64,000 bases of DNA from Phycisphaerae bacterium RAS1. Its GTDB lineage: Bacteria; Planctomycetota; Phycisphaerae; UBA1845; Fen-1342. A program made the translations under genes and the position numbers. Positions 9,176 to 43,162 of the stretch are shown here, piece after piece. The notes under the pieces were generated by a model that saw only the letters and a program-made list of their open reading frames with translations, did no database searches and had not been told where the DNA came from. The stretch spans positions 2,914,001 to 2,978,000 of the forward strand of contig SMLU01000001.1 in assembly GCA_007859745.1 (NCBI GenBank), written 5' to 3'. Numbering within the stretch: position 1 is the first letter of the stretch; every line of letters begins with the position of its first letter.

Positions 9176-10309
9176 TTATTGCGCCGCGCCGCGCTCGGCG
9201 CTGCGTTTTCTCGACCAGTAGAGCAACGCGCCGCCGATGATGACACCGGCGACCGCCGACAGCGCGCCGGCCGGGATCACTGACGCACCCGTGCGGCGCT
9301 GCCTGGCGGGCGGCGGCTCGATCTGGATTTCCTCAAGTTCGTAGAACATGTTGACCTTCAGCGCCCGCACACGGCCGGTGCCTTCGTGGACCGGTCGGTT
9401 GTCGCAAAACACCTGGCCCGGCTCATACGGAAATAGGAAAGAGCTTTCCGGCTGAGGGCCCACCTGCAGGTCGCGAGCCTCGATGCTCGAAGTCCACACG
9501 GGCTCGGCGCGGCCCTGCTCGCGCGATTCGAGCAGCGCTCGCACGGGCACGGCACGCGCCGCCTCGTCGCGGCGATAGCTGATGCGAACGCTGTTGGATC
9601 CGGAGCGGAGCTTGCGCGTCCATTCGACGACGGCAAAATCGAACTCCGGATCGAGGCGGCATTCCGTCACTCCGTCCGATCCGGTTCGCGTAATGCGGAC
9701 TCTCGCGATTCCGTTGTCCGAGAGCCGCGCATCGATCGACGTGTTGGGATCTGCGCGCAGCTCGGCGAATGTCGCGCGATATCCACCCGGCAGCAGCCAG
9801 TCTGTCGGCGTCCGCGTCGGCAGGAAGTCTCCCGCACGCAGAATGGCGTGCTGATTCGTGCGAGGCACGCGGTGGATCAGCATCCGGCCGTCGTCCAGGT
9901 AGAGCGAATCTTCAAACGAACCGCGACCCTGCTCGCGCGGCAGGTCGAGGTCATAGCGCGTCTCGAGGCGGACGCGCCGGCCATCCTGAGTCCAGACCAT
10001 GCTGCCGCGTACGCGGCCGTCGCCCAGCCTGTATTCCGTGTGCGATTGGAGCACGGAGCTCGGCAGAGCTCGGATATCGACGGTCTGCTCGAAGTCGAAG
10101 ACCGCGTGGACGGAGCTGAGGTGCTCCTGAGTCGATGCGGCGATGCTCAGCATTTGTTCGACCGCTTCGTCGCGCGTTGCACCGTCGCTTGTTCTGGAGC
10201 TGGTTGTACCCGAATCGGAGGTTGGTGGACTGGCGGCGGCGATCGGCATCATCAGCGTTGCAACGAGCAGTGAATGCGACGATCGTGCAACGCGCTGCAA
10301 GGAGGACAT
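9176..10309 (-). CDS. Unknown exported protein with C-terminal membrane anchor
   Basis: The 377-residue product is not recognised. It begins with a signal peptide (residues about 1-27, SSHSLLVATLMMPIAAAS) and ends with a membrane segment (ALSAVAGVIIGGALLYWS) followed by basic residues RKRSAERG, so it should be anchored with most of its mass outside the cytoplasm. The body is mainly polar and probably beta-rich, with no cysteine motif and no obvious catalytic signature. The ATG at 10309 is chosen because GGAG lies 7 nt upstream and the signal peptide starts there; the frame continues 28 codons upstream without support. It is transcribed away from the IS-disrupted gene on its upstream side. Confidence 0.7.
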   Translation of the reverse strand: MSSLQRVARSSHSLLVATLMMPIAAASPPTSDSGTTSSRTSDGATRDEAVEQMLSIAASTQEHLSSVHAVFDFEQTVDIRALPSSVLQSHTEYRLGDGRVRGSMVWTQDGRRVRLETRYDLDLPREQGRGSFEDSLYLDDGRMLIHRVPRTNQHAILRAGDFLPTRTPTDWLLPGGYRATFAELRADPNTSIDARLSDNGIARVRITRTGSDGVTECRLDPEFDFAVVEWTRKLRSGSNSVRISYRRDEAARAVPVRALLESREQGRAEPVWTSSIEARDLQVGPQPESSFLFPYEPGQVFCDNRPVHEGTGRVRALKVNMFYELEEIQIEPPPARQRRTGASVIPAGALSAVAGVIIGGALLYWSRKRSAERGAAQ

Positions 10310-10575
10310 TGGGTTTCTCCGAACCGCGTAAGCGGCGGTCGCTGTTGTCACAAACGTACTCGCGCTACATATCACGTTGGATCGTGAATGCACCCGCGCG
10401 TCGTCCTACTATACTCATTACACCAACTGGCGCAACTTCCATCGGTATAGTAAATGTCGCGTTGACAGAGGACATCCACCCACTCGCACGCCGGGCCGAC
10501 CATCGTCACACATGTGTTCCACTGATAAATCACGCCGCGCTTGGACACCGACGTGCCCTGAAACTGGCAGGGATA

Positions 10576-10603
10576 TTACCCCGGTCACTAAACATTGGAC
10601 ATT
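10576..10603. repeat. Left terminal inverted repeat of the IS630 element
   Basis: Begins TTACCCCGGTCACTAAACAT and ends in TTGGACATT. Pairs with 11663-11690. Confidence 0.88.
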
Positions 10604-10604
10604 T

Positions 10605-11636
10605 CTACCCTGCGGCGTAGCGCACGGGTTCGGCTTGGAAGTAATTCCTGATGATGTTGGGTCGGCGTTGCGTGTCGCGGAGGTAGCCTTGGAGATTGGC
10701 GATCAACTCGGGTTTGGTGGCGGGCCGCTGGCGGCCGACGGCGTTGGTTTTGACGTCGTTGTTCAGGTACTCGTCGGGGTTCAGCTCGGGGCTGTAGCCC
10801 GGCAGGAAGAAGATGCGGATGCGGTGTCGGTGGGCGTGCAGCCAATCGCGCGCCGCGGCCGAGCGATGCACCGGATGACCGTCCACGATCAGGAACACGC
10901 GCCGCCGCCGTTGGCGCAGCAAGCGGCGGCAGAAGCGGATGAAGACCTCGGCGTTGAACGAGCCTTCGAAGACCAGGAAGCACAAATGGCCGCGGTTGGT
11001 GATGCTGGACATCAGGTTGGCCCGGAAGCGCTGCCCCGTGCCGGGAATCACTGGCGTGACGCCGCGCCGGCCGTAGCTGCGGCCGGCCTGATGATCGCTG
11101 CGCGCCCCGAGCTGGTCGCCCCAGTGAATCTCGCCGTTTTCGGCCTTGGCCTGCTTCACGATCGCCGGATACTCCTGCTCCTTCCAGCGCTGCACGGCCG
11201 CCGGGTCGCGTTCGTACGCCCGCCGCAGCGGCTTCTGCGGCGTGAAGCCCCAGCGCTTCAGGTAGCGGCCCGCCGTTCGCACCGAAACGTGCAGGCCGGT
11301 GCGCTGCGCGATCAGGTCGCGGACCGCCTCGCGCGTCCAGAGCGCGAAGGGCAGCTTGAGTTGATCGGGCGTGCGGTCGGTGATCTGCCGGACGATGGTC
11401 GCGGCCTGCTGCGCCGGCAGACGCGGCTGCGGCGGCCGGCCGCGCTGCTTGGAGCGCAGCGAGGTGATGTTGCCGGCCTCGACCTTGGCCAGCCAGGTGT
11501 CGATCGAGGTGCGCGAGACGCCGAACGTGCGGGCCGCGACCGACTTCTTCGTGCCGCCGCGGATCGCCGTGACGACGCGAATGCGAATCTGCTCCTGGGC
11601 CTCCGGCGACAGCCTGCGTGTATCGAGTTGGCTCAT
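10605..11636 (-). CDS. IS630 family transposase
   Basis: The 343-residue product has an N-terminal helix-turn-helix region (KKSVAARTFGVSRTSIDTWL, residues about 30-50), a winged-helix linker (PFALWTREAVRDLIAQRTGL) and a DDE catalytic core. The acidic residues are visible in IHWGDQLGARSDH, in VFLIVDGHPVHRS (second Asp) and in LPGYSPELNPDEYLNNDVK (third acidic residue), all typical of IS630/Tc1-type enzymes that insert at TA. Length is close to other IS630 transposases of this single-frame type. The frame is intact, so the element may still be active. The ATG at 11636 gives the normal N-terminus. Confidence 0.95.
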   Translation of the reverse strand: MSQLDTRRLSPEAQEQIRIRVVTAIRGGTKKSVAARTFGVSRTSIDTWLAKVEAGNITSLRSKQRGRPPQPRLPAQQAATIVRQITDRTPDQLKLPFALWTREAVRDLIAQRTGLHVSVRTAGRYLKRWGFTPQKPLRRAYERDPAAVQRWKEQEYPAIVKQAKAENGEIHWGDQLGARSDHQAGRSYGRRGVTPVIPGTGQRFRANLMSSITNRGHLCFLVFEGSFNAEVFIRFCRRLLRQRRRRVFLIVDGHPVHRSAAARDWLHAHRHRIRIFFLPGYSPELNPDEYLNNDVKTNAVGRQRPATKPELIANLQGYLRDTQRRPNIIRNYFQAEPVRYAAG

Positions 11637-11662
11637 GCATGAAGTATATCACAAAGCCACAG

Positions 11663-11690
11663 AATGTCCAATATTATATGGCCGGATTAA
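11663..11690. repeat. Right terminal inverted repeat of the IS630 element
   Basis: Read on the minus strand it begins TTAATCCGGCCATATAATAT and ends in TGGACATT, matching the left end at 21 of 28 positions. The TTA of its tip creates the premature stop in the interrupted gene. Confidence 0.88.
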
Positions 11691-11911
11691 TAAGTCGTCC
11701 AGGAACAGCATTCGTAGGCGCCCGGGTCGCATCCGTTATACACCTGGCTCGCGCACGTGTAGCCGCTGCCCTGGCCGAATGCGAGCAAAGGTATCGATGC
11801 GGCGATCATCGCGAGTCCAACGGCGCGCATGACGTCTTTGATTTGTAATTCGTACATGTTTTGGTCTCCACAGCCCAAACAAACGGACAATGTGCACGGC
11901 AGCGACCCGAC

Positions 11912-11938
11912 GTAGCGGAGGTAGCGGAGGTAGCGGAG
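11912..11938. repeat. Three tandem copies of GTAGCGGAG
   Basis: A 9-bp unit repeated three times in the 5' region of the split cysteine-rich gene. Confidence 0.75.
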
Positions 11939-30023: not shown

Positions 30024-31604
30024 CTATTTCACCTGTCCGCCGCCGGCGCCCGCCTGAATCGCGTACAGCGCCCGCCGGTTGGTGATATACAGAACGCCAT
30101 TCGCGGCGACCGGGGTAGTGTAGACGGAACTCTCCAGGTTGTTTACCGCCAGCTTTTCCATCTTTCGCCCGTGCTTGAACACATAGACGTCGCCGTCTTC
30201 GTTCCCAAGCATGACCTTGCCGTCCACGACGTAGGGCGATCCCCAGATCGCCGCTTCGAGATCGGCGCGCCACAGCCGCTCGCCGGTCTTCAGATCGAAG
30301 CAGTACAGAAATCCGCTGAGGTCGCAGGCGTAGACCAGGCCGTCGCGCACGGCCGCGGTCGAGAGCGAGCGGTGGAAATCATTGCCACCGTGGCTCCAGA
30401 GCTTCGCCGCACCGGTGGCGTCGCCTGTTTTCGTCGCGTCGATGCAATGAAACTGGCCGACGCCTTCGCCGTGCTCCGGGTCCTGGCCGACGCACAGGAA
30501 CACCTTGTTCTCGAAGAATACGGGTGTGGAGATGATGTAGCTTTTCGTGCCCCGGCCGCCGAGCACGTACTTCGCATCGGGCGGATTCATGTTGTACTTC
30601 CAGATCGGGTCGCCCTTGGCGGGATCAAGCGAATAGAGCCATCCGTCGCCGCCGGCGAAGAACACCTGCGGCTTGCCGTTCACGACGCCGTAGGACGGCG
30701 AGGACCATTGGCCGTGAAGCGTGTTTTTTCCGGGGTCGTTTCGGGTCCAGGCCACTTCGCCGGTCTTTTTGTTGACGCCGATGAACGCGGGCGCCGCGGG
30801 CGCCGGGAGGTTCAGGTGTCCCTCGTCCACGCCGTTGGACGTAATGACGTAGACCATGTCCCCTACAACGATGGGCGAAGAAGTCGCCAGGTTGTGCGGG
30901 AAGACGCCCAGTTCTTCGATCATGTCCAGCGACCAGACAATATCGGCGTCTTCCTTCTCGTTGTACTTCTCATCCGTGACCGGGCCGTCGTTGTCACCGT
31001 CGAGAAATCCCTCCACGTCGGCGCACACCAGCTCGCAGCGATTGCTGACGTAGTAGACTCGGTCGCCGTCGGCGGACGCCGTCGAGCAGATGCCCTGCTC
31101 GGGCCAGTCGTTGACCTGGCCGGTCGGGAGCTTGTCGTGCGTCGCCTGCCAGAGGAACTTGCCGGTTTTCTCGTCCACGCAGACCACGACGCCCTTATCG
31201 CCCTTAATCTTGGGGCGCAGCTCGCCGTTGTTGTTCGTGCCGACGAAGATCTTGCCGCCCGCGATGACCGGATTGCCGTAGGTCTGCGACCCGAGCGGCG
31301 CGACCCACTTGATGTTCTTCTTGCTGCGCGCGTCCCACTCGGTTGGCATTCCCGTCTCGTCGCTCACCATGTTGCGATCGACGGACCCGCCCCACATGGG
31401 CCAGTCGCCGCGCTTGGCGGCGGGGGGAGCCGCCGGGCAGAGCGAGCTGCCTGCGCACAGGAGCGCCGCCAGCGCCTGCAACAGCAATGTCGAATGTCGA
31501 ATGCTGAATGCGGCGCCTTCGCGGCTCGCTGTTCGCGCGACGAATTCGACATTCGACATTCGACATTCGCCGCGCCGCGATGCGGAGTGTTCTGATTTAT
31601 TCAT
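30024..31604 (-). CDS. Exported PQQ-binding-like beta-propeller protein
   Basis: The 526-residue protein is an eight-bladed-type PQQ-like propeller with blade motifs such as GDKGVVVCVDEKTGKFLWQA, AFIGVNKKTGEVAWTRND, DGWLYSLDPAKGDPIWKYN, FLYCFDLKTGERLWRADLEA and VYVFKHGRKMEKLAVNNLES. A hydrophobic signal segment (STLLLQALAALLCAGSSLCP) lies at residues about 38-57, preceded by an unusual polar stretch encoded by a genomic repeat. The start ATG overlaps the stop of the upstream propeller gene (GAATGAATAA), indicating translational coupling. The role is inferred only: exported binding or scaffolding protein, possibly linked to the neighbour's product. Confidence 0.87.
   Translation of the reverse strand: MNKSEHSASRRGECRMSNVEFVARTASREGAAFSIRHSTLLLQALAALLCAGSSLCPAAPPAAKRGDWPMWGGSVDRNMVSDETGMPTEWDARSKKNIKWVAPLGSQTYGNPVIAGGKIFVGTNNNGELRPKIKGDKGVVVCVDEKTGKFLWQATHDKLPTGQVNDWPEQGICSTASADGDRVYYVSNRCELVCADVEGFLDGDNDGPVTDEKYNEKEDADIVWSLDMIEELGVFPHNLATSSPIVVGDMVYVITSNGVDEGHLNLPAPAAPAFIGVNKKTGEVAWTRNDPGKNTLHGQWSSPSYGVVNGKPQVFFAGGDGWLYSLDPAKGDPIWKYNMNPPDAKYVLGGRGTKSYIISTPVFFENKVFLCVGQDPEHGEGVGQFHCIDATKTGDATGAAKLWSHGGNDFHRSLSTAAVRDGLVYACDLSGFLYCFDLKTGERLWRADLEAAIWGSPYVVDGKVMLGNEDGDVYVFKHGRKMEKLAVNNLESSVYTTPVAANGVLYITNRRALYAIQAGAGGGQVK
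31484..31568. repeat. ATTCGACATT/AATGTCGAAT inverted repeat within a coding region
   Basis: AATGTCGAATGTCGAATGCT and, inverted, GAATTCGACATTCGACATTC flank about 45 nt, all inside the 5' end of the propeller gene ending at 30024, where it encodes the residues before the signal segment. Confidence 0.8.
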
Positions 31605-35377: not shown

Positions 35378-35402
35378 GAATTCGCCATTCGCCATTCGCC
35401 AT
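35378..35402. repeat. Short tandem repeat of ATTCGCC
   Basis: GGAATTCGCCATTCGCCATTCGCC, three units of 8 nt, directly upstream of the ligase. It creates several alternative ATG codons on the minus strand. Confidence 0.7.
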
Positions 35403-35414
35403 TACTTATTCACC

Positions 35415-43012: not shown

Positions 43013-43062
43013 TGGGTCAAAGGATCAAGGGATCAAGGGATCAAGGGACCAAGGGACCCAGG
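43013..43062. repeat. Tandem ATCAAGGG repeats
   Basis: About five degenerate 8-nt units (AAAGGATCAAGGGATCAAGG and so on) directly before the transporter gene start on the minus strand. Confidence 0.75.
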
Positions 43063-43125: not shown

Positions 43126-43162
43126 TGCGCATTCTCTGTGCCTCTGTGCCTCTGTGGTTGTT
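43126..43162. repeat. CTCTGTGCCTCTGTGGTT repeat fragment
   Basis: Short copy of the ACCACGGAG/CTCCGTGGT intergenic family, which appears as a full inverted repeat at 46862-47005. Confidence 0.6.

Follow-up and report, generated by a model that had tools for sequence, protein, structure and literature searches.

An insertion sequence of the IS630 family has almost certainly inserted at a TA dinucleotide in the gene of a 122-residue exported Cys-rich protein, splitting the gene in two. The locus lies in a 64-kb window (the whole stretch of DNA analyzed, 64,000 nucleotides from Phycisphaerae bacterium RAS1), to which the bare coordinates below refer. The full-length element (1115 bp, positions 10576–11690, minus strand) is present in the genome in four copies that are 100% identical. 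On one side of it lies the 5′ piece of the split gene (11687–11857, minus strand), which begins with a signal-peptide-like start, encodes residues 1–56 and ends at a TAA supplied by the element. On the other side the 3′ piece (10372–10575, minus strand) carries residues 57–122 and the T completing codon 56, and is cut off from its own start. The course of events would have begun with the gene of the exported Cys-rich protein followed, in the same direction, by that of a membrane-anchored partner. An element of the IS630/Tc1-mariner type would then have transposed by cut-and-paste into the TA of codon 56, duplicating the TA and leaving a signal-peptide piece that stops inside the tip of the element and a 3′ piece without a start. 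Recent spread would account for the same element now occurring as four full identical copies, one incomplete copy and a 151-bp relic. The split gene in its present form probably makes no functional protein.

Transposase and termini of the element

The transposase (343 amino acids, 10605–11636, minus strand) is intact and reads codirectionally with the host genes. It scored 218 bits against the NCBIfam model NF033545 (transpos_IS630; cut-off 100, 1.5e-64), and its Pfam matches comprise DDE_3 (9.5e-35) and winged-helix domains. A DDE triad was assigned by motif, not by structure, to D174, D252 and E289, with 36 residues between D252 and E289; in the IS630 family roughly 34–36 residues separate the second D from the E. 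The transposase model, the TA duplication, the imperfect repeats and the DDE spacing all fit the membership in IS630 that had been proposed in the preliminary description, and the 343-residue frame with its catalytic motif residues agrees with the intact transposase reported there.

The IS630-type element ISY100 of Synechocystis has been shown in vitro to move into TA sites through a cut-and-paste reaction, with duplication of the TA (PMC2170065). The present element resembles ISY100 in having a single DDE transposase gene, a duplicated TA target and a length of about 1.1 kb, and the terminal inverted repeats are imperfect in both, measuring 28 bp here and 24 bp in ISY100 (PMC2170065). No difference in kind was found from the IS630 family (IS630-Tc1/mariner superfamily).

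The two copies of the target duplication occupy positions 10574–10575 (left) and 11691–11692 (right), and TA is found at both borders of all four full copies. The left (10576–10603, plus strand) and right (11663–11690, minus strand) terminal repeats, TTACCCCGGTCACTAAACATTGGACATT and TTAATCCGGCCATATAATATTGGACATT, match at 21 of 28 positions. Re-measurement thus returned the identical TA flanks and the imperfect repeats as described before, and the earlier coordinates of element, TAs, repeats and joined frame proved correct to the base. The stop codon TAA at 11687–11689, at which the 5′ piece now ends, lies wholly within the element. Alternative ends at an inner TA pair (10577–10578 and 11688–11689, 3 bp inward) were considered and rejected, because a join there keeps an in-frame stop and the three other full copies end at positions equivalent to 10576 and 11690.

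Genomic copies, age and reversibility of the insertion

A search for other copies of the 1115-bp element, suggested in the preliminary description, revealed three more full copies elsewhere in this genome of 5.5 Mb and 7 contigs, at C2:377841, C1:1944590 and C1:1940159. They are 100% identical over 1115 bp, each has a TA at either border, and their insertion sites are unrelated; among the four full copies, that of the window included, there are zero differences. Relatives of the element are carried by other genera of the same family. The closest one outside this genome, in G014 (another genus), has 89% protein identity and the same termini next to TA, while several more distant relatives have TTA/CTA tips like those seen here, preceded by TA. 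The ends of the element are proven by the three further identical copies lying between TAs together with the G014 relative; homologous copies with other ends, which had been named as evidence against the insertion, were not encountered.

The same genome also holds one incomplete copy (L005) and a 151-bp relic of the left end (L006). The incomplete copy (L005:1501-2588, corresponding to G000:C1:3360574-3361661) is without the left terminal repeat, and its identity to the others breaks off immediately behind the stop codon of the transposase. All four full copies interrupt long reading frames. One of them lies within an 888-codon frame for a repeat protein that, by reading of its C-terminal sequence, ends in a dockerin. 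Two copies (L047:8160 and L047:12591, i.e., C1:1940159 and C1:1944590 of G000) form an inverted pair 4.4 kb apart, and both apparently lie in one repeat/dockerin-type gene of roughly 2000 residues, which also shows an apparent frameshift.

The presence of several identical copies would imply that the element has moved, and since the four full copies are identical, they point to a recent spread within the genome. In principle, their identity could alternatively reflect gene conversion or assembly consensus, and it might then be supposed that the insertion is old, or that the gene had lost its function before the element arrived. At a position where proline is otherwise invariant in the family, the joined protein carries a glutamine, a possible sign of divergence, and the gene of roughly 2000 residues that took up two copies of the element has an apparent frameshift of its own; both would suit such a history. 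However, neither piece of the split gene contains a stop or a frameshift, all family cysteines are retained in the joined protein, and the four full copies show no differences despite their unrelated sites, so that an old insertion or a gene already lost appears improbable. The recent date assigned to the insertion is supported by the identity of the copies, but not by the lack of decay in the flanking frame, which cannot be dated.

Given that the element is intact and that a precise join yields an open frame, the insertion could also be viewed as a reversible switch, with precise excision restoring the gene. What is known of the excision reaction speaks against this, as the cuts at the 5′ ends of ISY100 fall roughly two nucleotides within the element (PMC2170065), and excision by this class of transposase should accordingly leave a frame-shifting footprint. 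Modelled +4 excision footprints shifted the frame and destroyed the rest of the joined protein. Moreover, no empty or footprint allele of the exact locus was seen in the genomes searched, a list of relatives without a same-genus genome, and a scan of genome contigs with the downstream partner protein detected neither a relative nor an empty locus. On the basis of the cleavage position and the modelled footprints, physiological reversion would be unlikely, and a switch is a very improbable account of the locus. The statement that removal of the element restores the gene should hence be understood as describing the history of the gene.

The interrupted gene and its homologues

Joining the flanks with a single TA gives 369 nt, encoding 122 residues plus the stop, from the ATG at 11857 to the TGA at 10372 on the minus strand; the insertion site is the TA within codon 56 (TAT, Tyr). 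The clean 122-codon gene obtained in this way had been put forward as the ancestral gene. Its frame is exact, but the joined open frame by itself is weak evidence, because in this GC-rich window most TA sites fall within a reading frame of such length. The argument for a real ancestral gene is instead provided by homologues that run uninterrupted across the junction, with cysteines aligning on both sides of it. A search with the joined protein, as had been proposed, identified an uninterrupted paralogue at G000:C2:16146-16493 of this genome, which is 43% identical across residues 4–118, and uninterrupted homologues in four related genomes (G011, G019, G040 and G008), so that the nearest uninterrupted copies are one paralogue and genes of other genera. 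None of the homologues found ends at the TAA; a natural end there would have spoken against an interrupted gene. The predicted mature part of the joined protein contains 11 cysteines, and those invariant in the family occur on both sides of the junction. A Tyr-x-Cys motif straddling the insertion site is common to several homologues (TSYAC, TAYPC, GGYTC, IGYEC). That two separate small genes merely flank an intergenic element, their joined frame having arisen by chance, would agree with 94% of the 706 TA sites in the window being covered by an ORF of 122 codons or more and with base-shuffled flanks yielding such an ORF in 32% of cases, but the paralogue and the other-genus homologues crossing the junction leave this reading with next to no probability, and with regard to the gene family it can be considered refuted.

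Of 397 genomes sampled from the class, 6 contained the Cys-rich family. Pfam, NCBIfam and PDB sequences yielded no match above cut-off to the joined protein, the paralogue or the family profile.

With respect to expression, a promoter-like site of the transposase (TGGACA-16-TATACT with an extended TG; 11643–11670, minus strand), which is a pattern match only, faces the 3′ piece and, beyond it, the partner gene. Considering this pattern and the shared direction of the element and the host genes, it may be that the intact partner gene is still transcribed from the element. A hybrid promoter-like site produced by the insertion was also observed at 11673–11701, reading into the element, with a −35-like TGGACG in host DNA and a −10-like TATAAT in the terminal repeat.

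In its 5′ leader the split gene has a tandem array of three 9-bp units (11912–11938). Including this one, tandem arrays were observed in the leaders of four homologous Cys-rich genes (the others being L041:6989-7099, L042:6989-7109 and L043:7810-7859), with units of 8–10 bp that are unrelated to each other, and in L044 the corresponding region has a run of 14 G. It is possible that the leaders of the Cys-rich genes are hypermutable. The other exact tandem arrays of 7–8 bp in the window (31544–31569, 35380–35403, 43022–43048 and 43134–43156) coincide with the 5′ ends of predicted ORFs or lie close to them. Short leader repeats may thus be general in this genome, where gene starts are only predicted.

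A module of a Cys-rich protein, a partner and a MauE-like protein

The intact partner gene downstream (9176–10309, minus strand) encodes a presumably exported protein that begins with a signal-like stretch, carries a membrane helix at its C-terminus and matches no Pfam family at cut-off. A partner homologue follows the Cys-rich gene on the same strand in seven of seven other loci (L039, L040, L041, L042, L043, L044 and L045), and a MauE-family gene comes next in five of these seven, the assignment being made by homology in two of the five. The split gene is thus the first gene of a module consisting of a Cys-rich exported protein, a membrane-anchored partner and often a MauE-like protein. Neither the window gene nor the paralogue has an adjacent MauE gene, and three MauE genes are found elsewhere in the genome.

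Family-model searches, and a PDB sequence search with the family profile that gave nothing convincing, yielded no named relative of the partner. Its profile recovered, among 392 sampled genomes of the phylum, only the genome under study and one weak partial match, and a single-sequence fold was unusable (pLDDT 38.6). Judging from the genomes sampled, the module is rare. A separate locus of the same genome (L046:2062-2818, G000:C2, about 372 kb) resembles the module in layout, with an exported-looking ORF of 14 cysteines beside a MauE gene and a 367-aa ORF. This Cys-rich ORF (G000:C2:372480) and its neighbour were rejected as module members, since no similarity was detectable.

MauE is associated with a disulfide-rich exported enzyme subunit, in the maturation of the methylamine dehydrogenase light chain. 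The module may be likened to the exported Cys-rich proteins associated with MauE/DoxX, a MauE-family gene following the Cys-rich/partner pair at five of the seven homologous loci, which would be expected for an exported protein rich in disulfides. It differs from those systems in that the Cys-rich protein has no match among Pfam, NCBIfam or PDB families and that MauE is not adjacent at the window locus or the paralogue. No sequence match to MauA-like proteins (methylamine dehydrogenase light chain) was obtained in Pfam, NCBIfam or PDB, and no relevant literature was found on MauE with Cys-rich proteins in planctomycetes. We infer that the Cys-rich protein is exported and disulfide-bonded and, by analogy, the module may serve to produce such a protein and bring it to maturity. 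A more speculative suggestion, which we regard as rather doubtful at present, is that a few planctomycete-like lineages possess an undescribed exported disulfide-rich system, composed of the Cys-rich protein, the membrane-anchored partner and usually a MauE-like maturation protein, whose expression is perhaps tuned by hypervariable leader repeats.

The insertion event itself is an ordinary, textbook case, although its documentation is unusually good, given the exact ends, the sister copies, the paralogue and the adjacent conserved partner. The gene module is undescribed, of moderate interest and more interesting than the insertion. Annotation pipelines would probably show two meaningless fragments and a transposase at this locus, whereas the joined reading led to a conserved module that, its MauE-like third gene excepted, is named by no family model in the libraries searched. 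This module could be tested for disulfide maturation and for a function at the cell surface.
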